Assembly: GCA_028622995.1 (NCBI GenBank)
Contig: JAJQJQ010000002.1
Span: 4,216,001 to 4,280,000, forward strand
DNA: 64,000 nucleotides
Direction: 5' to 3'
Origin: Panagrolaimus kolymaensis
Lineage: Eukaryota > Nematoda > Chromadorea > Rhabditida > Panagrolaimidae
The notes under the pieces: model-generated
What the model was told of the DNA's origin: nothing
Databases searched by the model: none
Seen by the model: only the letters and a program-made list of their open reading frames with translations
Translations under genes and position numbers: made by a program
Part shown: positions 4,371 to 64,000 of the stretch, one piece after another
Layout of the letters: every line of letters begins with the position of its first letter
Numbering within the stretch: position 1 is the first letter of the stretch

Positions 4371-5198
4371 ATCTTTTTTATTTTAGTACTTATGTTATTA
4401 GGTTTCTAGTTTTATTTTTCAACAAATGCCATTCAAAATTTTGCTAGTTTTTAATTTGGGTATTTCATGACAAAGATTTTTATATTATTGTTTCTTGTAC
4501 ATACATACATTTCCTTATTCTTTTGTTTTGTTTCGCTTCAACTGCCATTTGTACATTATTGCTTTTCTTTTCTAATATGTTTATATTGTTTCATTTTATA
4601 TTTGCTCAAAACAAAACAAAAAAAAACCTGAGTGTGCTGTTACTTTTGCTCAAAAACAAATTTTGTAATTTAGAGATGTTTGATAGTTTTATTTATGTAC
4701 AGATTTTATTATACACATATTATTTTTGAGATGATAAAAAAATTACTGTTAAATATATTCAGTTTCATACTTTTATTATTTATTTCACAAATAAATATAT
4801 ACAAAATACATATTAAAATTTAGAAACAATATGCTGGGGGCCATTACCATCTTTTATTCTAAAACGTCACTAACATTCTACCGAAGCTAATTGTGCTATA
4901 ACTTAGAAAGTCACAGAAATGAGATTTAATTAATTTAAACTTTTTTATTGTTTTCAACAAAACAAAAACATTTTTGAAAAAAAAATTCGTTAAAAATTTT
5001 TGATGGGAAAAAAGTGTTTCAAAATTTATCTTGGCAACGAGCGCTCTCTCCTCTTTTTTGTTGTTTCGTTAAAACTTTTTTGCGTGTTTTACCTTTAAAA
5101 AAAAGTTTGTTACAAATTAGTTAAACCTTTTTTGCTTCCATTTTTAGTTTTTTTTTTATTAAACTTACCTTCATTTTTTAGATTTAACTTCAATAATT
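4371..5198. other. Intergenic: Raptor 3' UTR and CIAO2B leader
   Basis: No gene is supported. There is an AATAAA-type signal near 4790. A slightly less AT-rich block (about 4825-4920) has no recognisable RNA family. A pyrimidine tract with a 3' splice site (AG at 5180-5181) stands 17 bp before the CIAO2B start and has no matching upstream coding exon, which suggests a trans-splice acceptor. Confidence 0.6.
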
Positions 5199-5681
5199 AT
5201 GGGTGTTGAAAAACTTGATAACGCTGCTCCTGTTATTTATGATGTAAAATCTCGAGAAATTGATGATCGTAAAGCTGCTGATTTTGATGAAAATGTTGAT
5301 GATCCAATTGATGCAAGAGAAATATTTGATTATATTCGTGATATCAATGATCCTGAACATCCATATTCTCTCGAACAATTAAATGTCGTTCAAGAAGAAC
5401 TTATCAAAGTTTATGATACAGAAGATCCATGGGTAGACATAAGTTTTACACCTACTATACCTCACTGCTCTCTTGCAACTTTAATTGGTTTAGCTATCAA
5501 AGTTAAACTTTCTCGTTCACTACCGCCAAATATGAAAACTGTTGTTCGAATTACTCCTGGTACTCATAATACTGAAGCTGCAATTAACAAACAATTGGCT
5601 GATAAAGAAAGAGTTGCTGCTGCTATCGATAATCCTTCAGTGATGAGAACTGTTAATCAATGCTTGAAAGGTCGAGAATAA
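5199..5681 (+). CDS. ciao2b: MIP18-family Fe-S assembly factor (CIAO2B/FAM96B)
   Basis: Single-exon gene for a 160-residue protein of the MIP18 family (DUF59). With MMS19 and CIAO1 it forms the targeting complex of the cytosolic iron-sulfur assembly pathway, delivering 4Fe-4S clusters to DNA polymerases, helicases and other apoproteins. Family signatures seen: DPIDAREIFDYIRDINDPEHPYSLEQLNVV, then TPTIPHCSLATLIGL with the family's reactive cysteine at C90, then LPPNMKTVVRITPGTH and the C-terminal NKQLADKERVAAA. Length matches animal CIAO2B. The start is the first ATG after the trans-splice-like AG at 5181. ERAL1 follows 209 bp downstream on the same strand with its own acceptor, so the pair looks like an operon. 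Confidence 0.95.
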   Translation: MGVEKLDNAAPVIYDVKSREIDDRKAADFDENVDDPIDAREIFDYIRDINDPEHPYSLEQLNVVQEELIKVYDTEDPWVDISFTPTIPHCSLATLIGLAIKVKLSRSLPPNMKTVVRITPGTHNTEAAINKQLADKERVAAAIDNPSVMRTVNQCLKGRE

Positions 5682-11095: not shown

Positions 11096-12405
11096 ATGCT
11101 CGAATGGATATTGAGGCCAACTACTGGAATTGGTTATGTTGATAGACTTCTTACTCAATTCTTAGCATTTTCTTTTATAATCTGTGGCACGTTTATGGGT
11201 TATAAAACCTATGGAAAAGGCGGTATTAACTGCTTATCTAAAGCAGATTGGGTTGATTCATGGATCGGCTATGCCCTTGATATATGCCTCGTCGAAGGTT
11301 CATATGTTGTTTCTCAAAACCATCCACTTCCACCAACATATTCAGAACTTTTGGCGTCCAAAAAGATAAAATATTATCAAGCAAGTTTAAACTTTTATTT
11401 TAATTGTTTCCAAGTTGATTCTTTTAGTGGCATCCTATTCTTCTTATCATTTATGGCGGGTTTTTGCATCTACCTTTAATCTTTTGGGCATTTGTAAACA
11501 CTTTTGGCTGTAAGCGTAATAAGTTTTTTTGATGAAATGTATTTAATGATTTTATAGATTTTAATTGTGAAGCTTTTTGCAAAGCTACAAAGCAAGTTTT
11601 AAAAGGCCCTCACAAGGCTATTCTTTTTCAACGAAATGTAAATTCATTTGGACATAGTTTATTCGCTCCAGTGCCTGAAAGAAAAAAAAGAAATTGTTGT
11701 GTAACTATTTTCATGTAAGTTTAGATAATTATTTTCTAGTAAAAGCTTGAATTTTAGTTACCTCTTTAATTTATTGGAAAATAGTTATTTACCCGCCCTT
11801 TATTTATTTTTTAAAATTTGGAATCTTTTTAATATTGTTATTGTTGTAAGCTTTTCTTCATATAATTCAATGGACTTAAGTGATTTTAAATTTACTTTTA
11901 GTTTTTTGCCATTAATATTTTTTTTACTGAAGATGATGAAGATATATTTGGAGTATATACAATGGTTGGATTATATTCAAATAAATCAACTGCTTTCCCA
12001 TCTGTTACAACATGCTCCTTTCTTGTTCGCGAAATTGGCAACTCAGATCTTACAAGTATGAGTAAAAAATCCATCGATTGCTCATTGATTTTAAATTATT
12101 TATATAAGAAAGTTTACATTTCTTTATGGTTTATTCTCCCAGCATTATTCATAGTAAACACGTGGCAAATTTTAACGTCACATGCAAAGTTGTTTACCAA
12201 TAAAAGAAGCTATTTAACACGGCTTTTAATATCGGGAGATGTTGTTATTAATGAAAGTAATGTAGCAGCTGTGGATGATTTCGTTAAAAGTTTCAACTTG
12301 AATTGCCTTTTTGGTATCAAAATGTTGGAACGTACGATGGGTTATTCTTTTGCTGCAAAAACTGTTGTGCAACTTTTTAATGATTTAAATAAAGCTTGCT
12401 ATTAA
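11096..12405 (+). CDS. Innexin (gap junction protein)
   Basis: Exons 11096..11380, 11428..11509, 11558..11714, 11758..11845, 11902..12405; 371 residues. Innexins are four-pass proteins forming invertebrate gap junctions and hemichannels. Seen in order: GIGYVDRLLTQF (start of TM1), first extracellular loop with two cysteines (C46 in GGINC, C64 in LDIC), the family signature YYQW at 93-96 created by splicing, TM2 (HPILLIIYGGFLHLPLIFW), TM3 (YLPALYLFFKIWNLFNIVIV), second loop with FPSVTTCSFLVREIG and a second cysteine in SIDC, and TM4 (YISLWFILPALFIVNTW). The first intron begins with GCAAGT, a GC-AG intron; any GT alternative breaks the YYQW motif and the frame. The family usually has about 360-450 residues. 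Confidence 0.93.
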
Positions 12406-13065: not shown

Positions 13066-15579
13066 ATGTTTGATAGCGTCGAAGATAACCGTCCGCGTGA
13101 CAGATTTCCTCCTCGTGAAAGAGATTTCAATAATCGTTCGAGAGGTCGAGATGAATACAATGACAATCGGTTCGTTAGCAAAATTTTTGGTTCAATAATT
13201 CAATGTGAATATTTTAGTAATCGTCGTGACTTTTCTAATGGCTTTGGAGGAGGTGGCTTTAAACGACCAAGTGGTGGACCACGACGTGATGAAGAACCTA
13301 ATCCAAAAAGAAATCGTTTTGAGTATGTTTCTTAATTTTCTCGGACAAACTAAATCAATGATATTTTAGCTCAGCAAGTGATACATTTGAACCTCAATTT
13401 ACTACCAAAGAAGATACCAATGCTGTTGCACCTTTAATGACTTTTCGTAAGTTTCTGATGACTCAAGAAGAAGGTGTTTCTGATAATGCTGAAGCTGTTA
13501 AAAAGTACAACGAGTATAAAATTGAATACATGAAAAACGCTGTTCATCGCTTTTTCGAAGCTCATAAAGATGAAGAATGGTGAGTATTTCTTTTTCATGA
13601 ATAAAAGCTTATGGCTCTTTTTTAGGTTCAACCATAAATATTTTCCTGGTCAATATGAAAAGCGCTTAGACGAAAGAAAAGACGCCATTGAAAAGCGCTT
13701 ATCTGTATTTGAAAGCTTATTGTCATCCGGCGACTTTAGTTTTACTCTTGATTATACTTCAACAGAAGATATTATTCGTCTTCTTGATATTGGTAATTTT
13801 ATTGCTTATTCTATTGTTATAATTTGTAAACCATTGTTGTTTTTAAGCTGTTATCAAGCTTGAAGACGGTACTGATGAAGAGATCGAAGCAGCACGTACT
13901 GAAGAAATAATCGATGAAGCATTAACTGAACTTAAAAAGTTAAATGGCACACAAAATGAAAGTACAGCACAAAAAAACGGTAATAACTCAAACGGCACTC
14001 CAAAAGCGACCGAGGATCGAAAAAAGCAAGAAGCACATAAAACATCAAGCATTTACTTCAAAACCATTCCTCCCACTGTATCAGTGGACGAACTTGAAAA
14101 AGTGAGAAATTTCTTTGAAAATGATCATTTTACAGTAGCATTATCTTAGATTTGTAAAGAACATCCTGGCTTTCTTCGTCTTGGACTTTCCGATCCTCTT
14201 CCTGAACAAAAATTCACTCGTCATGCTTGGGCCAGCTTCCGTCGTGATGTTAATGTTAGAGAAATATTTTGGCGTCTTAAAGGTGTGAAATTGGCTGATA
14301 CTGACTTGGGAACATCTGTAAATCGTGATATACGAAGACGGATTCGCTGGGTTAATGGTATTACTAAGCATCGTACTGTATCACAAAATGATCTCAAATT
14401 GGCTGCTAAAATGGTTGTTTTACTTGATTTTAAATCTGGCCTCTATTCCGAAGGTGAAACAGGTTTGTACATTCTCAACATATTAATAAAGTTAAAGCTA
14501 TAATGTTTATTTAGACGCTCCATCTGATCTCGAAGTTGCTATTGCTCGAAGTAAAAATCCTGTTCTAGACAACATTACAGAATTTTTGATCGAAGAAGCT
14601 AATGCTGAAGAAGACGTCTTGCTTGGACTTAATGAATCAGAAAACTCTGAATCTAAGCAAGCATTTGAGGTGGATCAAGATATGTTAAAAACTTTGGACA
14701 AAATTATCGTTTATCTTCGTGTTGTTCATTCCTTTGATTTTTATGCTCATCTTCAATATCCTAATGAGGATTATATGCCTAACAGGTTTGTGTTCGCCTT
14801 TCCATTTTTCTTATTTTTGTTCTGGTTTATTGTTAAGAAATATCGCCTATTTAAATGCATTTGTTTTACAGGTTAGGTATGTTACACGTTCGTGGCATTC
14901 CACCAGATGGAAGTGAACATGGTAAAAATGCTAATGAACAACCTCTTCTTACTCAAGTTCAAATTGATGATTATATTAACAAATTCAATGAATTCTTTGT
15001 TAATCTTTTGAAATATGATGTTCCTTCCGAAGATGAACTTGTCAAATTAGGCAAAAAAGATCCTGATCAGTGAGTATTTGTTTGTTTGCAGTTGTTTATA
15101 TATCTTCTTTTAGGGCTGTTGATTTATTCGTTCTAGCTAACACCGTTGAAGTAGGAAAAGATAAATGGTTGTGTCCACTATCTGGTAAAAAATTCAAAGG
15201 TCCTGAATTTATACAAAAACATTTAACATCTAAACACCAAGAACGTCTTGATTTGGAACGTGATATGGCAATATATTATAATAACTATATATCTGATCCT
15301 GATAGGCCACAAGAAGCTGAAGTAAAACCTCAACCATTAGTTCAACAACCGCCTCAACAATCTTCGTCTAATAACCCACCACCTTCTGATGAAAGAAACT
15401 TCGAAAACAGGCCTCGTGAACGTGTTGTTGTAACTGAACGTGGATTCCCTCGCTTTGGTGGCGGTGGAGGTGGATTTGGAAACAATGGTGGCTTTGGTCG
15501 TGGACGTTACTTTGATCGTGGTGGTGGAAGTGGAAGAAACCAAACGAATTATAAAGATTTGGATGTTCCAGAAGAATAA
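13066..15579 (+). CDS. srrt: ARS2/SERRATE, nuclear cap-binding RNA-processing adaptor
   Basis: Nine exons (13066..13169, 13218..13322, 13370..13579, 13626..13792, 13848..14101, 14150..14462, 14515..14785, 14872..15069, 15114..15579), 695 residues. ARS2 links the nuclear cap-binding complex to miRNA processing, histone mRNA 3' ends and RNA turnover. Motifs: short Arg/Asp/Gly-rich N-terminus; [16 protein letters not shown] ... [10 protein letters not shown] ... [34 protein letters not shown] and the [11 protein letters not shown] region; [39 protein letters not shown]; the zinc-finger signature [21 protein letters not shown]; Gly-rich tail ending in YKDLDVPEE. It is shorter than the human protein, mainly in disordered regions. 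The next gene follows after 222 bp with its own acceptor, suggesting an operon. Confidence 0.96.
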
Positions 15580-24166: not shown

Positions 24167-24901
24167 TGGTTAGTTCTTTTTTATTTTAGTTTATTTCGAA
24201 CTTTATTTTATCTTTCTTTTTATTCTTTAGGAAAGCCTGCAAATCTTATGGCTATTGCTTGTGCAAGAAATCCATCCCTTGCCATGTGTGCTGGAAATTC
24301 GGATGATGCAACCTTCCGTGCCTTTGATGCTCCTGAAGATTCTGATACTCGATTCATGAGAAGTATGCCCAAACTCGATTTCGATGAACTTCAAATTGAA
24401 CGATATTGTGATCGCCATCAAGAACATTACTCTCATTATTGCACTGGAGAAGGCCGAATTGAAAATAAACTCATGTCGAAGATCCTTAAATTCTGTCCAT
24501 CATTTGAAAAATTCTGTCCTGAAATTGCCACCCAACTCAATTCAGCCACAGCTAAACGTTCTCTTGATGATGAAAGCTTCAGAGATTCAGGTGTTCCACT
24601 TGTTGAACCTCCACCACTTCCCTTTGCTTCTCAAATGGGTGGCATGGCTTTCGATTCCCCAATTGATGCTGAACGAACTGCACAAATTCCTGAACGTCGT
24701 CCTGAAAGCGCTCTCTCACCTGAAATCATTCAAACTTGCACTCCGGATTGTACTGCTCCTCACTGCACTCGAGAATGCAAATGTGCCAACACTCATCCAT
24801 CAGTTCATTCAAAATGTAATCCTCCTGCCACTTCTGCTCTTGTTGGTGTTTGTCAAGCATGGTACAACAAATGTCCCATGTTCAAACCTGTTAGTTATTA
24901 A
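24102..24901 (+). CDS. Secreted Cys-rich protein, nematode-type
   Basis: Exons 24102..24168 and 24231..24901; 245 residues. The first exon encodes a clean signal peptide (MTLISSFVVFVSVIVSLAVL) with the donor just after it. The mature part has an acidic first half with Cys pairs (YCDRHQEHYSHYC, FCPSFEKFCPE), a Pro/Ser linker, and a C-terminal Cys cluster (CTPDCTAPHCTRECKC ... CNPP ... CQAWYNKCPMF). There is no transmembrane segment after the signal peptide, so it is probably secreted or extracellular. I know no functional family; the pattern resembles nematode-restricted secreted proteins. The start was chosen because only this ATG gives the signal peptide in the main frame; an upstream out-of-frame ATG lies at 24044. 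Confidence 0.8.
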
Positions 24902-25746: not shown

Positions 25747-28165
25747 TCAACTCTTAAAACATAATCTTTGTTCATCATTTGTAATAGGCAGTGAAGAAGA
25801 GGCAACTTGATAAACTTCTTGAATTGGTGAGGAGACATGATGAACTTCTTGAACGGAGGAGGAATCTTGATCAACTTCTTGAATAGGCGAGGAAACTTGA
25901 TGAATTTCTTGAACTAAAGAACAACCAATCTGATGAGGCGGCATACGAGCATTACGAAGAACTTTTTCAATCTCAATGAAACCGCGCTTTGTTGCTTCTT
26001 CCATAGGCGTCTCATTGCAATCATTCGGAGTGTTGATTTCATCTTTCGAAAGTTTCATGTAATGAATTAAATACGAAACAGCTGGAAGTTGATTGGATTT
26101 GACGGCGAGGAAAAGAGGAGTATTTTGCTGTAAAACAGAGTCAGAAAAATAAAAACACCAAAAGTAAAAAACTAACATGAGCATCGAGTCCAGATACTGC
26201 TGCACCTTTACTAACAAGCGATTTCATAATTTGAATAGAATTGCAAGCAGCAGCTTCATGCATCGCCGATTTACCATTGTAATGAGTTGCAAATTTTTCA
26301 GCAGTTTTATCAACAAGAATTTTAGGATGTTTCAAAAGCAGCTCAACAAATGGAAGCATTTCATCACCCAATCGACAACATTTGATGAGTGGAGTATCAT
26401 TCGTGTATGCAAGAGCATTAACATCAACTCCATTAATTCGAAGGATTCTTTCAACAATATCCAGAGATTTCGTTGCGACCGCATCATAAAGTGCTGTTCT
26501 TCCATCATCATCCGGAATATTGACATCAATTTTACCAAGTAGAAACATAGCCACATCTTTTCGATTACTTCTTATAGCAAAATGAAGGGCTGTTGCACCA
26601 GTATCATCTTGAGCATTGAGAGGACATCCGATTGAAACCAATTTTTTAATATCTTCAATAACCATAGCATCACTCTTTTCTTTAACACTTTCTACTGCCC
26701 AATGAATGCAAGTACGGCCATCAGAATCAGCTATTTTAGCACAGCTTAGTATTTCAGGTGTTTCAATTTGTTCTCGAGTAATTGGTTCACTAGCAGAAGC
26801 ATATTGATGAAGTAGCGTGAAAACATCTCTTCGAAGTGGAGGATCCTGTCGATATCTTTTTGCAATTGGTTCACCAACATTGATACTGTATACACCACTT
26901 AATGAAGGTAAACTTGTTGGAGATAAATCAGACAAAAGAGATTGTCGATCGAATAGACCATTATGCTGATGTGATGATTTTATCATTACTTCTTGAGGAT
27001 TCTTGGTATAATCGTCGTCAGGAGGAGGATAATAGACACCACTAACTCTAACATGTTTGCGTTTAAGAGGTCTATGAGAAGCAATATTGACCGCACCAAT
27101 AGCGAAAAGAATACTACCAAAGACACAAATAAGAATGTAAGGAAGATAACTTGACGAGCTCTCTGCCTTCCTAGGTTGAACTTGAGCATCATAAACAGCG
27201 ACACCCAACTGAGTAAAAGCCTAAAATCACAACTAATAAAGATATTAACTTTTGTAAAGTAACTTACTTCTTGATTCGTTTCAGTAGTTATCATATTAGC
27301 AGCCAATTTAGCATCAGTAAAGCATGAATGTTCACCATTGACAGCGTGTGTTTCGACGTGAAGCAAATTATTCAAAGACGAAAGTTGTTCACAGACAGAA
27401 GTATCCAAACGCAAATAAACCATCACCCCTTTCTGACCCTTGACATAGCGGTTATGTCTAGAAATTACAGTTGTTGTTTCCATCTTAATAAGAGATCCTT
27501 GCCCAATAGTTGAAGACCATTCATAAATCATAGGAAATCCATCATTATCAAGTTGATATCGAGCTGATACATGCAGAAGTTGAGATACAATCATCAAAAG
27601 TTTAGGCGCAACATGTTCAACGAAATTTCGTGGATCAGTGATGAGAGTGAGCACGAGATTATCCGAAAGTACATCATGTTTAGTTGTACAATCACCACCA
27701 TCCCAACCACATGCAGCTGAATTACATTCAGGATTGCAGATACCATTTGCATATTCTTTTAAACAATATTCTTCGTCAGGACACCTTTTTGCTAAACATT
27801 TAGCATCAAAACACATACTCTTATTGTATTCACAAAAAAGACCACGAAAATCATCGACGCATTGACAAGAATAAGAGCTAAAAGTTTCAAATTTTAAAAA
27901 GTAGTAAGTAGGATAATACTTACTTGTAATCTTCAGATGTATGACATTTACCAGAATTCTTGCACAGGTTACCATCGCATGGGTTCGGTTTTGCACGATC
28001 ACATGTGTTTCCATAAAATCGATCAGGACATTTACAAAATTCTTCACCATTAGAATCTTTATGACAACTTCCACCATGCATACATAAAAGTTTATTACAA
28101 AACGATGTTTCATTGAGCGCATGAATGAAGTGAATACCAATCAGAAAAATGATTAACCATTTCAT
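25747..28165 (-). CDS. Miniature LIN-12/GLP-1-like Notch receptor (2 EGF, 1 LNR)
   Basis: Complement of 27924..28165, 27268..27877, 26177..27220, 25747..26127; 758 residues. Signal peptide MKWLIIFLIGIHFIHAL; EGF-A (about 23-55); EGF-B (about 63-96, split by intron at DYN|SYSC); a single Lin12/Notch repeat (about 113-144, CPDEEYC...GWDGGDC); heterodimerisation region with a furin-like RHNR at 221-224; transmembrane helix (about 309-328); basic stop-transfer and RAM-like VYYPP; ankyrin repeats (DTGATALHFAIRSNRKD, DDDGRTALYDAVATKS, NGKSAMHEAAACNS). It ends in a short tail with four 10-residue repeats instead of polyQ/PEST. Notch receptors normally carry 10-36 EGF repeats and 3 LNRs. Introns match the large paralogue at 37906-45974. 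A trans-splice-like AG sits 22 bp before the ATG. All exons are in frame with no breaks, so it looks functional. Confidence 0.92.
25795..25914 (-). repeat. Coding 30-bp tandem repeat (4 copies) in the mini-Notch tail
   Basis: Encodes VQEIHQVSSP, IQEVDQDSSS, VQEVHHVSSP, IQEVYQVASS in a row. It is absent from the large Notch paralogue and fills the place where the PEST/transactivation tail would be. Confidence 0.85.
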
Positions 28166-29639
28166 AGCTGAACAACCAAGCAGGAGTCTGCAAAAAAAAA
28201 AACATATGATTACAAAGAAGTTAGAAAAGTTTCTAAAAAAAGCGGGATTCATTAATCTTTTGAAAATTTGAATAATAAATGTTTTGTCAATGGAAAAATG
28301 GCTTGTGAATGACTGTTGGACAGATTTTTCAGATTGAATAATACCCAAAACCTTATTAACTAACCTTTAGAATAATAATAATACCGTGTAAAAGACGAAT
28401 AAAATTATGTTAAAATAAATTTTATCACTTTTTGCTGCATTCACCAAAATCATGGAGAAAAAAAGAACAAAAAATTGATACATAGAAAAAAAAATTCCAT
28501 TGCACCAATTTTCGGGTTCTCAACGCGCTCATGTGTTACTGTAACGAAATGGCGGCAATCAAAATCGTTGATGAATGATGCTTCCTTTTTGCTGAATATT
28601 TGTTTGGAGATCCTAATTCCCAAATGATTTTAAGGCTTTTACGATTATAAAATACCTATATTTAAAACCCATTTATTCTAATAATAAAACATTTATTAAA
28701 GCAAGAAAAAGACAATGTTCATTTCATTTCAGAAAATTAAATCAAGCGGAAGCTCAAAAGTTATTTTTGATAGGTATTTTGATTGTAAGCTAGCTTACTT
28801 TTTTATAAACGCTTTCTTAACAAATTAGATATTTAATCTTTTCTTATCACCAGTAATATAATAAAATGGGCTGAGTTTACTTTACAACTTTTGTATTTCA
28901 TTTTTTGAACAATTATTTTAATCACTTGATAGAGAAAAAAAACATAAGACATTTCTGTCAAAGCATTAAACTCAAACCCAAAGTTAGGCAAAAATTGTTT
29001 ACAATGATTTTAAGTTGCTTATTCGACAAACTGGTTTTTATTTTATTGAAAAAAGGTATACAGATAATTTTTAGGTCATAAGAAGCAATACATTTTTTTG
29101 TTGCTAAAAAGCGAAAGCTTTTGAAAAACTCCACCCGAACTCACATAAAACATTCGAACTCTTTTAATGCGTGGGCTTAATTTCATTCACCATGTATGCT
29201 AGCGTTGGATGATGGTAATGGAAATTCGTGAATGGTCATTATAAATATACAAACAAATGAAGCCTTCATAATATAAGCAAGCATTGAAAGATTCGAGGTA
29301 GACAAGTGTCGGAAGTTGTAATGTTTTTTTAAACCATAATTCGAAAAATAAAACAATGCTGACTAAACTTCATTAATTTATCTGCTTATATCACTTGTTG
29401 TTTGACAACTTTCATATTCCACAATCCCCCAAAATATGCAGTTGTCTTTTTTTTGCAAAGTTAAAGACAATTGTAATGTAAATAATACCCATAAAAGAAA
29501 AATCAAGAGACACAAAAATAATTTTAAATGAGTTTATTGGTAATAATACAAGATTGAAATAAGTCACAAAAAAGTATAAATCTTGATTGGATTAGTAGAG
29601 ATGTTATAGCAGCTAGCTAGTCGGCGAAGAGGAGAGAGA
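28166..29639. other. Intergenic between mini-Notch and Lys-rich gene
   Basis: Upstream region of the minus-strand small Notch (an AG splice acceptor at 28188-28189 on the plus map) and 3' side of the minus-strand Lys-rich gene. AT-rich with no recognisable gene. Confidence 0.5.
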
Positions 29640-30474
29640 TCATTCTTCCTTCTTTTCTTCATCTTTCTTTTCAACTTCCTTCTTATCATCTTCTTTCTTA
29701 TCATCATCCTTCTTTTCATCAGCGTTTTTCTTCTCATCTTTCTTATCTTCTTCATCCTTCTTTGGGTCGTCCTTCTTTTCGTCGTCTTTCTTTTCTTTCT
29801 TAGAGCCAGCAGCGCTTTCTTTCTTGGAACCATCTTTTTTCTCTTCTTTTTCATCTTTCTTGGAGGCTTCTTTCTTTTCGACCTTCTTATCATCTTCTTT
29901 TTTATCGTCATCCTTCTTAGATCCATCTTTCTTTACTTCTTTCTTGGAGCCATCCTTTTTGTCTTCTTTCTTGGAACCATCAGCAGCAGACTTCTTGCTC
30001 TTTTCCTTCTTCTCTTCTTCCTTCTTTTCTTCTTTCTTAGAGCCTTCCTTTTTAGAGCCATCTTTCTTTTCTTCTTCTTTCTTTTCATCCTTCTTGTCTT
30101 CTTCCTTTTTGACTTCTTCGACCTTGTCATCCTTCTTCTCTTCTTCTTTCTTTTCCTCTTCCTTCTTTTCTTCTTTCACAGATTGAGTTTTCTGTTCAGC
30201 GTTTTTGTTCAAGGGAGCTGGAGGAGGAGCAGCAGCAGGAGCAGCAGGAGTTGCAACAGGAAGTGGAGGAGGAGCAGGCTTTCCAATGGCTGAAGGTGGA
30301 GGAGGAGGTTTCTTACTGAAAATAATAAAATTAAAACATGTAAAATCAAAAAATAATGTAAACTTACTCTTTCTTTTTTCCACATTGTGTAAGAACGACG
30401 AATCCAAGAGCAGCACCAACACAAGCATTGAAGAGTTGAGCACCAAGAGCTAGGTGCATCAAATCAAAGGACAT
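29640..30474 (-). CDS. Membrane-anchored Lys/Glu/Asp-rich repeat protein
   Basis: Complement of 30368..30474 and 29640..30315; 260 residues. The N-terminal 35 residues form one hydrophobic segment (LALGAQLFNACVGAALGFVVLTQCG) ending in KKK, a signal anchor or tail-out membrane helix. A Pro/Ala-rich linker follows (KKPPPPPSAIGKPAPPPLP...), then about 200 residues made almost only of K, E, D, S and G in irregular units such as KKEEEKK, KKDGSKKE and DDKKEDDKK. No stop interrupts this low-complexity frame, and the hydrophobic exon joins it across a 52-bp canonical intron, so it is a real gene. Function is unknown; such tails are usually disordered. A TATA-like box lies about 140 bp upstream. Confidence 0.75.
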
Positions 30475-37905: not shown

Positions 37906-40900
37906 ATGGATTGGCATAATTCTATATTTTTGCTGCTAATCTTAATTATTAATTCTTGTTTACCCGTTTATTCTTCAGGTAAATATGTTTGCTTGTTATT
38001 TTTTACAAAGAAAGTAATTCTGGTAGGAATTGATTGAGGCCTAAAACCACAGAGATTGTAAAGCCTAAAAAAGACTTTTAATCTTTGACCTTTTTAAAAA
38101 AACATTTCTAACATTTTTAAACCATTCTTTATCTATTTTAAAAAAAGGCTTAATCGATATTCGGGTTTTCTAAAATAATGATGAAAAGCGGATGTTGTGT
38201 TGATCTGCAAACTGAACTATTTTTTTTCTTCAAGAGCAGCTAAAAAATATCATCACAGTAGATAAATAAAAAAAACCATGTGTTGTATTATTTTTGCTTA
38301 TCATTCCTTTCGTTTTTTCAGATAAAATTTGTAATATTGATTCAGATTGTTTAAATTTTGGAAAATGTTTATTACTTCCCGAACCGTTTACAGGAAAAAT
38401 GAAAAAACAATGCCAGTAAGTTTTACTTTGTTTATTGTATGTTGGATATTTCAAAATTTTTACCTTTATTTACGCGCTGCTTTCTTTTCTTCCTTTTTTG
38501 ACATTTTAGCTCCTCTCCATTTTTTTGATATTTTCTTTTGCGGACACAGAAAATAAATAAATTCAACAACTCTTCTCAAAACAAAAATCAATGGATGGGA
38601 GAAAAGAAAAGGGCAAAAACATACGCCATAGGGTTCTTTTTCGCACTTATTTAGGGTTTGTTTCTCGTCCTCAGCAGGTGTCCTTATATTAAATGGCCGT
38701 CACGCAAATTATAAAAAATTGTGATGGGAATATTCCTTTTCTGTGAATCCGGGAATACTTGAAAACAATTTTTAAGAAATTCAAAAGATACTTTGCATTT
38801 TTTTATAATTCCTTTCTTTTTGCAGCAATCATTCATTTGTATTAGATTTATACGCTAATCCACTTAATCAAAAAAAGATAAAAGTTACCTTTTTTTGTAA
38901 ATGGCATTGAAAGCGATTGAATTACTTTAAAGGTTTTTTTGACACTTTTTACAATTGAATTGCGGCAAAAAAGGAGGGGAAAGAAAAATGTCTGAAAAAA
39001 AAAACTTGAAAATGTGTGAGAGAGTTTCATTCCTTACAAGGCCATATCATCCATCCATCCATAGTATTTTCTCAGGTTCTTTCATTGGCATTCTAGTTTT
39101 TGATCGACTCACATACACAAAAAACGAACAATGTCAAATGTTCCGTGACTAAACGTTTTTCTTCATTTGATCATTTTTTTTTCTTCCTTCAAAGGGAAAA
39201 TGGGGAAAAGAAAATTTTGTTTTGTGAGTTAAAAAAAATATGTTTTTACCAAGTCGTCGTCAATTGAAGACGATATTGGTGGTGTTCATCATCATGGGAA
39301 AAGCAAACTTTAATAACAACACAGCAACTTTTTTGTAAATTGAAATTTAATCACATTTTTTATGCTTTTTTTTCAATCAAAAAACTTTATTTAATACGTT
39401 TTTTTTTCTTGCGAGAAAAAAGAGTTTGTTTTTGGATTAAATACAAAAAGATGGGCATGTTTGCTGAAGATTAATTGCCACCAAAAAAACCTTATTTCCC
39501 ATGACTGGAGTGGCAAAAGAAAATGAAATATCGGCAATGAAAAATGGATTGAATTTCTTACAAAAATATTGTTGTTGCTTTTTTGCAACTTTAGAAAAAA
39601 AGTTTAAAAATTTGAGTTTACAGTAGCAGAGATCTTAAAAGGAAGATAGTTAAATATGCATAAGAATGACAATAATTAAAATACAAAAATTTTAGATGCG
39701 CCGATGATTTTGCTGGAGAAACTTGTCAACTTCGAAAATGTCCAGAAAATCCATGTCTCAATAGCGGAATTTGTGAATGGACTGACCCCATATTTAAATG
39801 CCATTGTCCTCTTGGTAAGTATCTTTTGATTGACATTTGTACGAGAAAGAAACGAAACAAACAAAAAAAGTAAAAGCAATGATTCAGTCGTCTTAGAAAA
39901 TGAAAATAACGAATACAAAAAAAGCAAGCACAAGCCCCTGTTTTTTTTTCTCTTTCTCTAAATAAAGGAGTTTATTCATGAAGCATTCATTTTGTTTTTG
40001 GGCTCCAATCATTTGTTATTTATTTTTATTATTTTTTGCTTCTGATGACTTTTTCTTGAACTTTTATATTGCGGCGCGAAAAAGTTCATGCTACTATTTT
40101 ACCTCCTGCTTCTCATTTTGGACTTAAAAAATGGCAGCAACAATACATAGTAAAATTGCGCAGTTTTTAAGAATCGATGCTGCTGTTTTTTCCTTCTTCT
40201 TTCGTTTTGTCTTTTGACAAATGATCCTTCTTGAATGTGAAAAACGAGCAGCATCGTTGTCTCATCTTTTCCCTTTTGTAAAAAATAAAAATGGAGAAAA
40301 AGATGAGTGAAAAAAAAAACATTTTGTCACATTACATTTTTTTATTAGAGAAAAAAAGGCAGAATAAAGCAAGCAATATTACAGTTTTATAAAAAAATGG
40401 AATTAAAGAATAAAAGGCAAAAGAAAACATACGCTTGATAGTAGCAAAAAATTATTTTTACAATTTCATATCAATGCAAAAATTATAACTTGAACAAAAT
40501 TTTCAGGTTATTCTGGAAGTTTATGTGATACACCAATTCCTAATGCTTGTGACATTAAAGGTTGTGTTAATGGCTTATGTCGTCTTGAAGGATCCACTGA
40601 TAACGCAGTTTGTGATTGCCTTTATGGTTTCGGCGGTGATCGATGTGAATCAACAACTCTTTGTGATCCTGTTTCATGTTCCGGTCATGGCACATGTAGC
40701 AGCAATGGCACCTCCGTCAGCTGCTTGTGCGACGCTGGATGGAAGGGTGAAAGATGTGAAATCGATGTGGATGAATGTGTAGCTGATCCTGAAATTTGCG
40801 GCATAAATGGCGAATGCATCAACTCTCCTGGAACATATTTTTGCCGATGCAAACCTGGATTTATCGGAGTTCATTGTGAGAAATCTCATTCTGAAAGCTG

Positions 40901-43900
40901 CTCTCCACAACCATGTCAAAATGGTGGAACTTGTTCAACTGGATATTTGCAAAATTCTTTTACATGCAAATGCCCTCCAGGCTTCACTGGAGCTTTATGT
41001 GAAGAAAAGAACAATGAATGTGCCCCGATTGAAGATACAAACATTGGAGATTTAGTTTCCCGTTGCACCAATGGTGGATCATGCATTGATGACATTAATG
41101 AATTTCAATGTATTTGTGCTCATGGTTTTACTGGACATGATTGTCGACAAAACATTGATGAATGCAGTCTTTATGGTTCTTCACTATGCCTCAATGGTGG
41201 AACTTGTATGGATACTTATGGCTCCTATAAATGTGCTTGCGTCATTGGATTCACTGGAGATCGATGTGAAATTGATATCGATGATTGTGTAAATAATCTT
41301 TGTTATAAAGGTTCAAAATGCATTGATAAGCTTCGATCATATGAATGCGAATGTCCTGAAAATCGATTTGGAATTTACTGCGAATTTGACAATCCTTGCG
41401 CTAAGAAAAATAACAAATGCCTTCATGGTCAATGTCTTCCAAATTCTTCAAATGGAAATTTCACGTGTTTATGTGATCGTGGATTTACGGTAACCATTTA
41501 TTTTCTTTTGCTTTATGACTGACTCTATTTAATATTGAATTTTTAGGGAGAATTCTGTGATATTGATATCGATGAATGTACAGCTGCAGCCCGTTCACCT
41601 TGTTATAAAGGCAAATGCATCAATACCCATGGAAGTTATAAATGTGAATGTGAGATTGGATACGAGGGTGAAAATTGTGATATTTCAATCGATGAATGCG
41701 AAAATCGTCCATGTTTTAATGGAGCAACATGCCTTGATTTAGCTGGAGATTTTCAATGCATTTGTATGCCATCATGGTCTGGAAAACGATGTGAAATTCC
41801 AAAGCCTTATTCCCCTGGTTGTGAAAAGCACATGTGTATGCATGGTGGAGTATGTCGCAAAACTCCTTTCAGTGAAGAATATTGCCATTGTCCCGCACGA
41901 TTTAGTGGTCGTTCATGTGATATCGTGAAATCTGATCCTTGCGCTGATAATAAATGCAAAAATTCTGGTAAATGCATTGCCACAAATGATTACAAGTAAG
42001 CTTCGACAATTTTGAAAGCTTTCAATAAAAAAAGAAATAATTTTAGTTCATACTCATGTGAATGCCAAAAGGGTTTCAGCGGTCATTATTGTGAAAAGAA
42101 AAGTCAAAGTTGTAAAGAAAATCCATGCTTGGTTGGAGAATGCATTGATACCTTAAATGGTTTTCAATGTCAATGCCCTCCTGGGTATCGAGGAGATAAT
42201 TGCGAGGTTGGATTTAACTTTAATTTTAAACTTAAAACAACTTGAATTTTTAGATAAATATTAATGAATGCAAACCTGGTTTATGTAAAAATGGAGGAAT
42301 TTGTGTTGATGAAGTTAATGGTTATTCATGCAGTTGCCCTGCTACACATACAGGTGAACGTTGTGAAATAAATGTAACTGATCCATGTCAAAAGGATCCA
42401 TGCTTGAATGATGGAACTTGCATGACTCTTAGCGTGAATGGAAGGTTTACTTGCAATTGCAAAGATGGCTTTGATGGATTTCTTTGTCAAATAAATACAA
42501 ATATTTGTGATCCGTCAAGATGTCTAAATGGTGGATACTGTACCATTGAACAAAAATCTTGCAATTGCCCTGAAAATTTTAATGGAACTTTTTGTGAACG
42601 AAATCAAAACACATGTGCCAATGTTCAATGTCAAAATGATGGAATCTGTGAAAATTTCGATAATGATTTCTTTTGCAATTGTGGCTATGGCTTTGCTGGG
42701 AGATTTTGCGAGAAAAAGGTTAACATTGATAAATATGAACCCGAAGAAAAGAAGGAAAAGGATAGTTGCGAGAAATCTGAATGTTCCAAGCTTGCTGGAA
42801 ATGGAATTTGCGATCCCGATTGTAATTATCCCGGATGCGATTATGATGGCGGAGATTGTTCAGCATCTATTTTCAACCCATTTTCAAATTGCACATATGC
42901 GAATTATTGCAAATATGTTTTCCGGGATAATCATTGCGACGAAATTTGCAATAATGAAGGCTGTCTTTTTGATGGATTTGATTGTGAAGAAAAAGTTGCC
43001 ACAAAATGCCCAGACGAAGAAAATTGTTTAAAAGAATATGCAAATGGTATCTGCAATCCTGAATGTAATTCAGCTGCATGTGGTTGGGATGGTGGTGATT
43101 GTACAACTAAACATGATGTACTTTCCGATAATCTCGTTCTCACTCTCATCACTGATCCAAAAAATTTTGTTGAAAAAATTGCGCCTAAACTTTTGATGAT
43201 TGTATCTCAACTTTTGCGTGTATCATCTCGATATCAACTTGATAAAGATGGATTTCCTATGATTTATGAATGGTCTTCTATTAGCGGGCAAGGTTCTCTA
43301 ATTATGATGGAGACCACCCAAGCTACAGCGATTCGAGAAAAACGTGAAGATGATGAACTAAAAGGTGTCATTATTTATTTGCATTTGGATGCTTCTGTTT
43401 GTAAAGAACTTTCTTCGTTGACTACATTGTTGCATGTTGAAACAATTGCCGTGAATGGTAACCAAGATTGTTTTACCGATGCTAAATTAGCTGCAAATAT
43501 GATCGCCGCTGATACAAATCAAAATGTAAGCTTTTAACAAATAAAATTTAATGAATTATTTTTTTGGTTTTTAGGCTTTCACTGATCTTGGAATTAGCGT
43601 TTATGATGCTCGAGTTCAACCAAGAAAAACTTCAGAAACCTCTTCAAATTATTTTATTTATATCATAATTTGCACTTTGGGTGGCGTTGTTTTTATTGTT
43701 GCAATGCTAAACTCTGGAACACAGCGAGCGCTCAAACGAAAGCTTGTCACAATTCGGGGAGTTTTCTATCCTCCAACAAGTAATGAAATTAGAAGTCAAC
43801 AAATAAATCATCCCCAACAAAAGCCTCCATATGGATTGAATAATTATAATCTCGATCGCCAATCACTCATGTCAGAAACAGGATCATTTAATGGACCAAT

Positions 43901-45974
43901 GGCTAAAAAATTCCGTGAAGAACCAATTGAAACAGAAAGAGTATTTACAAAACTTCATGAATATGCGTCTTCAGCTGAACCAATAACTCAGGAACAAATT
44001 GAAAATCCAACCATACAACTATGCGCTTGTGTCAGAGATTTAAATGAACGAACTTGCATTCATTGGGCAGTTGAATCCCTTGCTGCTAAGAAAGACCGTG
44101 ATATTATTGAAGATATTAAAAAATTGGTTTCAATTGGATGTCCTCTCAATGCTCAAGATGATACGGGAGCAACAGCTCTTCATTTGGCTATAAGAAGTAA
44201 TCGAAAAGATGTGGCTATTTTTCTTCTTGATAAAATTGATGTCAATATTCCGGATGATGATGGAAGAACAGCACTTTTTGACGCAGTAGCAACAAAATCA
44301 TTTGATATTTTTGAAAAAATTCTTCGACTTGAAGGGGTTGATGTTAATACTCTTGCAAATACAAATGATACTCCACTTATCAAATGTTGTCGATTGGGTG
44401 ATGAAATGCTTCCATTTGTTGAGCTGCTTTTGAAACATCCTAAAATTCTTGTTGATAAAACTGCTGAAAAATCTACACAAAATTCTAATGGTAAATCAGC
44501 GATGCACGAAGCTGCTGCTTGCAATTCTATTCAAATTATGAAATTGCTTGCAAAGAAAGGCGTTTCTATCTCTGGGCATGATTGTTATGTAAGTTTTAAA
44601 AAATTAAAAAAGATTTAATTAAATATTATTTTTTAGCAACATACTCCACTTTTTATGGCCGTTAAATCAAACCAATTTGAAGCAGTTAAATATTTACTTA
44701 TTAACAAAGCTGATCCAAACGCTCCAAATGATTGTGATGAAACTCCTCTCAGTGAAGCGAAAAGACGTGGTTTCAAAGAAATTGAAAATCTTCTTTTAAG
44801 TGCTGGAGCTCAACCTTCTCCTTGTCCTACAGTTCCAGGAGGATCTTATCAACCACCATATCCTTCGTATACTGTACCATTAAATGAAGTAAAAGCTGCA
44901 ATTCCTAGTTTTCAATCGGTTCAAAATATTGAAAAGTCTTCAGCGAACAACAAAAGTGTTCGCAAAATTAAAGGCAAAGGAAATACTCCAGCTTCTGCTA
45001 ATTCTGCAAATGCTCCAAACCATTTGTTACAAATACAACATCAACAACATCAGCATGCTCAAGCAACTTTAATGCAAAATCAAATGAACAGCTTTTATGA
45101 TTATAGTCCATATGCGCAGCAATATCAAATGCAAATGCCACAATATCATAATCATTCGATGCCTCACCAACAAAATCAACAGTTTAAAATACCACATTCG
45201 ATTCCACCTTCACCGATGGCGCAAATGCAAGCTGCTTATAACCAACAGCAACAACACCAATTCCAACAACAGCAAATTAATGCTCAAGTTCCAACTTGTC
45301 AAAATCGAAAAAGACAGCTACAACAGCTGCAATTACAACCGCGCCAGCGTGATTCTCAACAACAGCAACAACAAAGGCAACAACCATATCAACCTCAACC
45401 TCAGCAGCCACCATTGCCACAAACATCAAATTATTCCAGTAGTCCACCATCCACTCAAATTCCACAATATCCTTTAATTAATTCCGAAAGTCCACATATT
45501 AGTGATAGCGCTTATGGAAGTCCTTCGCCCAATTCGTATCATAATTCTTCCACATCCACGAATACATCGGGACACAGTGATACCAGTAGCTTTGCCTCTC
45601 CTCCAGGCTCACACGATCAAGGGTTTTGGCCCAATACATCTCCAGATGCCGTTACTGTGATAGGTAGCAATTCAACCCTTGTTGCTCCAAATCAGCCATC
45701 ATATGCTCAAGAACAGCCCATAAAATCTGAATATGCCGTTAATCCCAATCATTATTTCGCCCCAGATCTTAATATGCCATATGTAATGTCACAAGCTACA
45801 TGGGGAGCTCAAGCAGCTTATTATCAGAATAATTATCAGCCAAATTATCCTTATCGACATTCTCAAGTGATTCCACATCCTCCAATACTTCCTTCAACAT
45901 CAGCACCATCAAATCAACATCATATGCAACGGAGTGCCTCGATGGCTGAGATATCTTATCATCATCACCCGTGA
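37906..45974 (+). CDS. Notch receptor, LIN-12/GLP-1 type, full length
   Basis: Nine exons (37906..37978, 38322..38415, 39696..39814, 40507..41489, 41547..41995, 42047..42206, 42254..43525, 43575..44588, 44637..45974), 1,833 residues. Signal peptide in exon 1 (ILLLLILIINSCLPVYSS region). I count 19 EGF repeats to about residue 778, several calcium-binding (DIDEC, DIDDC). Three Lin12/Notch repeats follow (about 798-828, 839-870, 878-909), then a heterodimerisation domain with a furin-type REKR (about 987-990), one transmembrane helix (about 1074-1095), RAM-like VFYPP, ankyrin repeats, a Gln-rich stretch and a Ser/Pro/Thr-rich PEST-like tail with WPNTSPDAV. Notch is cleaved on ligand binding and its intracellular part acts with the CSL factor LAG-1. 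The first three introns are long (343, 1,280 and 692 bp) and may hold enhancers; the others are about 50 bp. Which C. elegans gene is the closer orthologue cannot be decided. Confidence 0.95.
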
Positions 45975-59131: not shown

Positions 59132-60689
59132 TATTTTTATTTTTCTATTTTTTTTAACGTCGGACAAACAAGAAAAAATACTTTCAACCGCGGTGAAGCG
59201 GCTGACTGAGTGATCGGCGATGGCGGCAACGTTGGTATTGGCTCCTCCTAGTTTCATTAGTTTTTTTTCTTCTCAAAATGGATATTTTTCTTTTTCTTTT
59301 TTTTGCAGCCAAGTTTTTTTTGTGATTGTTTTTGTTTTTATTTTTTTGTCTCCTAAAAACCCTAAACACAATGTTAGGACTATTTTAAAATATTTTATTT
59401 CTTTCACAAAAAATAATGTTTTGGAAATTTGTTGATTATCTTTTTGTTTTGTCTCTCCCGTTTTTCTCTGAAGAAAACAAAGTTATTTTGACTGATTTTA
59501 TTTTTTGCAAGAAAATTTTCACAATTAAATGTTATGTTTTTTTTCTTGAAAAAAACAACAAAACAAAAACACGTTGGCCAAAAATAGGCCATTTTTAAAA
59601 GTTTTTTTTGATAAAATAGTTTCTTTCTTCTCTTTGAAAATAATTTACTGTATCATGATTCTTAGATCAATAGAATGTCACTGAATTTTTGTAGCCTTTT
59701 GAAGAAGCATCTGTTTATCTTTTGTCATTTTCCTTGAGTTTTAGAATGTTTATTTTTGTTATTATTAATCAAAATAAACTTGCGTCGTCTTTACACAGGC
59801 CAAAAATTTTCTTGACGTTGATGCCCTTAGGCATGGATCTCGCGCTGTGATCCTCTTTTTTATCTGTATTTCTCTCCCTTCCATGCATCCATCGAATACA
59901 TTTTGCTGCTATTGGTTTTCAATTATTTATTTCGTTTAATTCTTTTTTCTTCCTTTTGTGTATTTTTGTTTCTTCCAATGATGTTTTGTTTGTCATCGAT
60001 GAAGAAGAAAAAAAAAATAGATTCAGGATGCGCTGCCCTGAGGGCCCTCAAAATCTATGATGATTTCGAAATGGGATGACCGCAGCCTCCGTAAAAAATG
60101 TGAATTGAGAACTCTGCATGATATCTAAAAAAAGAAAGGCGAAGAACAAACTATCCACAACCATTTTACTTTTTTTCTTGAACAAAACAAATAGTTTTTT
60201 CCTTTAAAAAAATTATATAAAATTTTCAATTCTTATGTTGGAAAGTTATGTCCCTTATTCACACCTTCCCTTTTTTCCGCCTTTTTTTCTTACGATATCG
60301 AAAACAAAAATAACTGTGAAAAATCTGAGTCGTGCAAAAAATTATTTTTTTTTTCAAAAAAATTGTTTCATCACTTTTTGTTTTTTTTATTGATGGTTGC
60401 GTCTAGTTTTAACTTTTATGCATTCACTCATTTTTGCCTTATTGTTGTTGTTGATAAATATTAAATAACTGTTTACGTGATCTTTATTTTTGCCAAATGG
60501 CCTCTTTGAACTTTATCGTGAAATTTTTATACAGATTCTTTAAAACTTATCATTTATTTTATTTTTTTAAGATTATTCGCAATTTGGACATCATTCAATA
60601 ATCCAACCGTTTTCGGTGACCTTCTCCCTCAACTTCTTCGCTTTCAAAATAATACTGTTAACGGCGACGACAAAAATAAAACAGAAATA

Positions 60690-64000
<3,311 letters not shown>

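Follow-up and report, generated by a model that had tools for sequence, protein, structure and literature searches.

The usual switch of Notch signalling is a ligand. In a 64-kb stretch of DNA from Panagrolaimus kolymaensis (the window) we find a small gene, mini-Notch, that may have dispensed with this switch: we give about an even chance to the reading that it encodes a ligand-independent Notch whose output is gated by its own transcription. Slightly more tentatively, we propose a natural, selectively maintained and constitutively active Notch of 'two-hit' architecture (an opened negative regulatory region, NRR, and a lost tail), with an output set by transcription and a core kept matched by gene conversion. 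The sequence itself shows how the gene is built, its descent, its near-saturated divergence and its constraint, as well as the tracts that look converted and the modules that are missing. Codon alignments and shared introns support common descent with a full Notch, and mini-Notch is a member of the Notch gene family by descent but not a canonical Notch receptor, because two features are wanting: the many-EGF array (two EGF-pattern modules plus a stump, where a large paralogue has 19 EGFs) and the three LNRs (one, where the paralogue has three). The heterodimerisation domain (HD) is present, as are both the RAM-like motif and the ankyrin repeats.

Structure of mini-Notch and its large paralogue

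Removal of three GT-AG introns from 28165-25747 on the minus strand leaves an intact frame of 758 codons, which confirms the four-exon, 758-residue gene of the preliminary description. The features of this gene and of the large paralogue are as follows.

28188-28202 (approximate), minus strand: candidate splice acceptor (poly-T followed by GCAG), with its end 22 nt upstream of the ATG
28165-27924, 27877-27268, 27220-26177 and 26127-25747, minus strand: the four mini-Notch exons
27923-27878, 27267-27221 and 26176-26128, minus strand: the mini-Notch introns (46, 47 and 49 bp), GT-AG
28118-28165, minus strand: putative signal peptide, residues 1-16, judged by inspection, with the ATG at 28165
28001-28099, minus strand: EGF-pattern module matching EGF13 of the large gene, residues 23-55, from the cysteine pattern
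27832-27979, minus strand: EGF-pattern module matching EGF14, residues 63-96, split by the intron 27923-27878
27796-27813, minus strand: EGF15 stump CFDAKC, residues 103-108, directly before the LNR3 junction
27688-27783, minus strand: the single LNR, equivalent to LNR3 (LNR-C), residues 113-144, Pfam PF00066
27149-27687, minus strand: heterodimerisation region, residues 145-308, with a NOD match and the intron 27267-27221
within 27205-27176, minus strand: S2-like position GVA/VYDAQ, from an alignment to the human sequence
27080-27148, minus strand: transmembrane (TM) segment, residues 309-331, by inspection
27023-27040, minus strand: RAM-like motif GVYYPP, residues 345-350, from motif alignment
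25954-26782, minus strand: ankyrin region, residues 431-690, from Pfam, with the intron 26176-26128
25747-25953, minus strand: 68-residue tail and stop codon, containing a 30-bp tandem repeat
37906-45974, plus strand: large Notch paralogue, 9 exons, 1833 aa, with 19 EGFs, 3 LNRs, HD, TM, ankyrins and a long tail
42767-43102, plus strand: the three LNRs of the large gene, from Pfam
43334-43345, plus strand: REKR furin-type sequence motif in the HD of the large gene

Domain prediction with Pfam bore out the one-LNR, HD and ankyrin architecture of a truncated Notch paralogue. The LNR is matched at residues 111-144 (E 1.2e-11), and its top PDB matches are Notch negative regulatory regions; the HD is matched by PF06816 NOD at residues 152-202 (E 4.4e-05, 23.2 bits with a cut-off of 20), with the NODP model absent from the mini-Notch Pfam listing, and the ankyrin repeats are matched at E 7e-31. 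None of the Pfam EGF models reached E 0.001 against mini-Notch, so the two EGF repeats claimed earlier are called from the six-cysteine pattern and from 54.5% amino acid identity (77 aligned codons) with EGF13-14 of the large gene, a region retained at an omega of 0.24. The ectodomain has an even number of cysteines, 22, and no calcium-binding EGF (cbEGF-type) motif. The EGF13 module (28001-28099) reads CMHGGSC, which we take to be an O-fucose-type consensus, where the large gene has CMHGGVC.

The jump from the start of EGF15 to LNR3 is as originally claimed: the stump CFDAKC keeps the C-x4-C spacing of EGF15 (CKENPC in the large gene) and is followed by the CPDEE of LNR3. Beyond the membrane, the RAM-like motif is kept in all four aligned sequences, as GVYYPP in mini-Notch, GVFYPP in the large gene, and SVFVPP and AVFYPP in the relatives P0005 and P0006 described below. 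The REKR motif is absent from mini-Notch, where the aligned HD loop (27462-27436) reads RHNR; this fits just the minimal furin pattern R-x-x-R. The tail is 68 residues long compared with 387 residues, rich in Q, P and S, in the large gene. Much of it is encoded by the 30-bp tandem repeat at 25799-25913 (3.8 copies, 77% matches), and VSSPIQE, which occurs twice, fits only a relaxed form of what we take to be an Fbw7-like pattern.

Additional EGF or LNR exons joining the locus from upstream, which the preliminary description had asked about, were found neither by tblastn with both proteins across the window (E 0.01, upstream of 28165 on the minus strand) nor by a six-frame cysteine-pattern scan, a scan that is blind to intron-split modules. 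The candidate acceptor before the ATG is as would be expected of a trans-splice (spliced leader) site or of a 5' UTR intron.

The 19 EGFs reported for the neighbouring gene are upheld by the cysteine pattern, with 18 regex matches and EGF2 counted by eye because the first regex match runs into it. In the last ankyrin repeat of this gene (44637-44800) four residues are missing that are present in both mini-Notch and Panagrolaimus P0005, and the large copy therefore looks derived at this point. Between the two Notch genes lies a minus-strand open frame of 269 residues (29640-30449), apparently of low complexity and with no Pfam match at E 0.01. On the other side, a cluster of cysteines with EGF-like spacing (24737-24817) is found at the end of the plus-strand ORF 24167-24901, for which Pfam gave no match at E 0.01. 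Other open frames in the neighbourhood have matches to Raptor (303-1571), an iron-sulfur assembly domain (5163-5681), innexin (11902-12405), ARS2 (15067-15579) and forkhead (60522-61022).

Descent, gene conversion and constraint

All three mini-Notch introns have the same positions and phases (2, 0 and 0) as introns of the large gene, as calculated from exon lengths; the sharing first noticed for the intron inside EGF14 thus extends to the other two. Because the introns match in position and phase the copy was made at the DNA level, and a retrocopy origin is rejected. We assume from the family norm that the neighbour did not gain the extra modules but that they disappeared from mini-Notch: the block EGF15 to LNR2, together with all that precedes EGF13.

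Synonymous divergence between the two genes is patchy, and a uniform recent duplication is rejected on this ground. Outside two tracts, 120 of 215 same-residue degenerate codons are identical, where a fraction of 0.50 is expected from the codon usage of both genes, while inside them the count is 186 of 206, a contrast that is descriptive because the tracts were picked on the same data. GC3 is 0.22 and 0.21 in the two genes, and their codon usage has a correlation of 0.94. Synonymous sites outside the tracts are near saturation, indicating an old duplication, and the near-identical codons within them point to gene conversion between inverted neighbours.

27514-27777, minus strand: inferred gene-conversion tract 1, residues 115-202, LNR3 and the first part of the HD, boundaries approximate
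26207-26659, minus strand: inferred gene-conversion tract 2, residues 472-622, mid-ankyrin, boundaries approximate

The longest identical runs between mini-Notch and the large gene are 35 and 33 codons. Among 20,000 permutations 0.085% reached a run of 35 codons, and in none did the second-longest run reach 33. A segment test gave P <=0.0006 with mismatch penalties of 3 and 4 (5,000 permutations) and was not significant with a penalty of 2 (P 0.35 and 1.0); a two-state segmentation produced wider tracts (residues 23-207 and 421-692), with just 208-419 left as diverged. The tract boundaries are soft, because one of the three penalty settings is non-significant and the two-state segmentation is wider.

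Two Notch relatives were found for comparison: P0005 from Panagrolaimus sp. PS1159, which carries the UniRef name Notch, and P0006, a metagenome protein. These were the top two of 76 matches to exon 3, and the only ones taken as Notch relatives; a protein search with the whole of mini-Notch returned four weak ankyrin proteins, and one with residues 109-320 returned zero matches. Few nematode proteins were matched, and no mini-type relative was found in these searches with the whole protein, residues 109-320 and exon 3. The sequence of P0005 starts at the TM exon, so that mini-type and large-type cannot be told apart from it.

Within tract 2, where mini-Notch and the large gene are 87% identical, the amino acid quartet sites with P0005 and P0006 split 22:0:0, all joining mini-Notch with the large gene. 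Over residues 285-471 the quartet sites split 2:2:2 and the pairwise identities are similar (mini-large 48%, P0005-P0006 44%, mini-P0006 49%, mini-P0005 42%, large-P0005 47% and large-P0006 45%); a FastTree of the same residues paired mini-Notch with P0005 at a support of 0.40, that is, with no resolved grouping. These outgroup quartets cover tract 2 and residues 285-471, tract 1 being outside the reach of P0005 and P0006. We read this pattern as a duplication dating from about the time when these lineages split, probably followed by gene conversion.

Over the 399 codons outside the tracts dS is 1.31, dN 0.34 and omega 0.26 (bootstrap 0.18-0.35), an omega that is rough because dS is high. When 638 codons were evolved neutrally in simulation, none of 200 replicates stayed free of stops at any of four distances. 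The two copies have also changed at similar rates: with P0005 as outgroup there are 33 changes on mini-Notch and 31 on the large gene (P 0.80), and with P0006, over residues 285-622, 17 and 20 (P 0.62). The P0006 row for residues 623-690 (22 columns, with 0 changes on mini-Notch and 6 on the large gene) was left out because P0006 appears to run into an intron beyond residue 632; including it would bring the counts to 17 and 26. A neutral pseudogene is rejected on the intact frame, the omega outside the tracts, the equal rates and the simulations. Mini-Notch shows no sign of decay and appears to be an old, intact second Notch gene under constraint.

A related possibility is that mini-Notch is a dying or silent duplicate that has stayed intact only because the large copy has recently converted it. 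Such repair could account for the HD and ankyrin regions, and protein searches returned no orthologue, but the codons outside the tracts are free of stops at a near-saturated dS and have evolved no faster than those of the large gene, and we regard this explanation as very unlikely. An assembly artefact, in the form of a chimera or a collapsed copy of the large gene, we find scarcely credible. Two identical stretches of 103 and 94 nt could in principle be polishing errors; against this, the copy is inverted, lies approximately 10 kb away with other open frames on either side, possesses a start and a tail of its own, and shares ~75% DNA identity from LNR3 to the ankyrin region. The collapsed copy raised in the preliminary description thus fails on sequence, and a misassembly or collapsed allele is rejected for an inverted and diverged copy. 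As a whole, that description was right in recognising a truncated Notch paralogue; it missed the old duplication, the apparent conversion of LNR3-HD and the mid-ankyrin region, and the absence of the long tail and of REKR.

Gating modules and proposed activity

The S2 site of human Notch, an A/V bond, is shielded by LNR-A, the A-B linker and LNR-B, and taking away all three together is reported to lead to ligand-independent activation (PMC3145759, excerpt). Removal of LNR-A and the linker is insufficient, LNR-B having to be removed as well, and work cited in the same source reports S2 cleavage in vitro when all three are absent (PMC4537882, excerpt). In LIN-12, RAM and ANK are enough for the nuclear complex and for target activation, and LIN-12(intra) without PEST and Cterm has strong constitutive activity (PMC5100865, excerpt); a missense change in the third LNR, lin-12(n302), is a weakly activating allele (PMC6829150, excerpt). 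LNR-A, the A-B linker and LNR-B are all missing from mini-Notch.

We propose that an inverted, DNA-level duplication would have given rise to an old and functional second Notch gene. With LNR-A, the A-B linker and LNR-B gone, S2 would be unmasked in its product, and an ADAM-type protease followed by gamma-secretase would free the RAM-ankyrin domain in the absence of ligand. The released domain would be comparatively stable, because the long tail is missing, and would enter the CSL/Mastermind-type complex that the large receptor also uses. Control would thereby be shifted from ligand to promoter, so that cells expressing the gene would receive Notch output, and gene conversion would stop the LNR-C/HD and ankyrin core from drifting away from that of the large receptor. 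An open NRR, cleavage, stability, nuclear activity and transcriptional gating are what we infer for mini-Notch. As a counterpoint, widespread expression of a Notch that is freely active would do harm.

Ligand-independent activity appears the best-supported of the three options offered in the preliminary description, because human Notch is reported to be released when the segments absent here are removed together. The role of a ligand decoy seems less likely, because constraint has preserved the TM, RAM-like and ankyrin parts, and the calcium-binding EGF motif is absent.

The proposed opening of S2 can be questioned. Loss of LNR-A and LNR-B alone may not suffice, because in simulations the HD stays intact and the S2 site inaccessible once the LNRs have been lifted (PMC3145759, excerpt). 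Mini-Notch might thus be a receptor that is still gated, in which LNR-C and a compensating HD close S2 until a new trigger, either force or a partner in adhesion, works through the two EGFs or the junction cysteines to open it. The near identity of LNR-C and the first HD part to the large copy, the retention of EGF13-14 and the even cysteine count are consistent with this. So is a change beside the plug void in HD helix alpha3 (27271-27324 in mini-Notch, 43469-43522 in the large gene), which reads AANMITTE in mini-Notch and AANMIAAD in the large copy; speculatively, its TT could pack the adjacent void, which in human Notch1 is occupied by the A-B linker, and keep S2 closed. The alignment of alpha3 to human Notch1 is tentative, that to human Notch3 is a weak (-1.7 bit) stretch, and an AlphaFold model of exon 2, with a mean pLDDT of 44, was uninformative. 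The in vitro cleavage noted above and the lack of a cbEGF-type motif weigh on the other side, and we judge continued gating to be unlikely. A role as modulator, in which the mini protein does reach membrane or nucleus but acts mostly by competing against the large receptor for proteases, CSL or Mastermind, so lowering the output of that receptor, we consider quite unlikely. Mini-Notch is indeed without the large Q/P/S-rich tail and its possible activation functions, while its ankyrin core is matched to the large receptor; however, the RAM-like motif is conserved in every aligned sequence, and the LIN-12 results, in which RAM and ANK suffice and loss of PEST and Cterm raises activity, weigh against it (PMC5100865, excerpt).

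Mini-Notch among known Notch genes

NOTCH2NL corresponds to the N-terminal part of Notch and is not known to have a TM or ankyrins. Like mini-Notch, the human NOTCH2NL genes are truncated Notch paralogues, and 'gene conversion' is a recurrent term in two NOTCH2NL papers (24 and 29 occurrences). Unlike them, mini-Notch keeps the C-terminal signalling half; a secreted decoy of the NOTCH2NL kind is rejected for a protein with a TM segment (by inspection) and ankyrins (Pfam).

The Notch duplicates of Caenorhabditis resemble the present pair in having diverged ectodomains and a RAM-ankyrin core, with fewer EGFs in one copy (13 and 10; PMC6457397, excerpt), and differ from it in that both have three LNRs. 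The origin of those duplicates has been put at the base of the Caenorhabditis Elegans supergroup (PMC6457397, excerpt), and the present pair is for this reason probably independent of them. The planarian genes DjNotch1-6 have incomplete domain sets, with EGF, LNR, ANK and TM together in DjNotch1 and 2 alone, and no 2-EGF/1-LNR receptor is described among them in the excerpt of PMC10970066. Nor was a natural Notch of this architecture found in the open-licence literature, among the matches listed.

Parallels are also seen in activated forms of Notch. Human Notch1/2 NRR truncations, T-ALL alleles, and LIN-12 NRR-missense and intra-deltaPEST forms have, in the excerpted sources, lost NRR gating and/or the tail, as mini-Notch has. 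These are engineered or mutant alleles, whereas mini-Notch is carried in the germline and shows signs of long-standing constraint.

Mutants and leukaemia have shown what it is for LNR gating to be lost, and the routes to ligand-independent Notch activity found in excerpts of the open-licence literature, among the matches listed, concern trafficking and disease. If our reading of mini-Notch is true, it would show that an ungated receptor can serve as a normal developmental tool, and the gene would be nature's own experiment on how much of the NRR silence requires. The pattern of divergence and conversion, in turn, suggests which parts a pair of Notch genes needs to keep matched.
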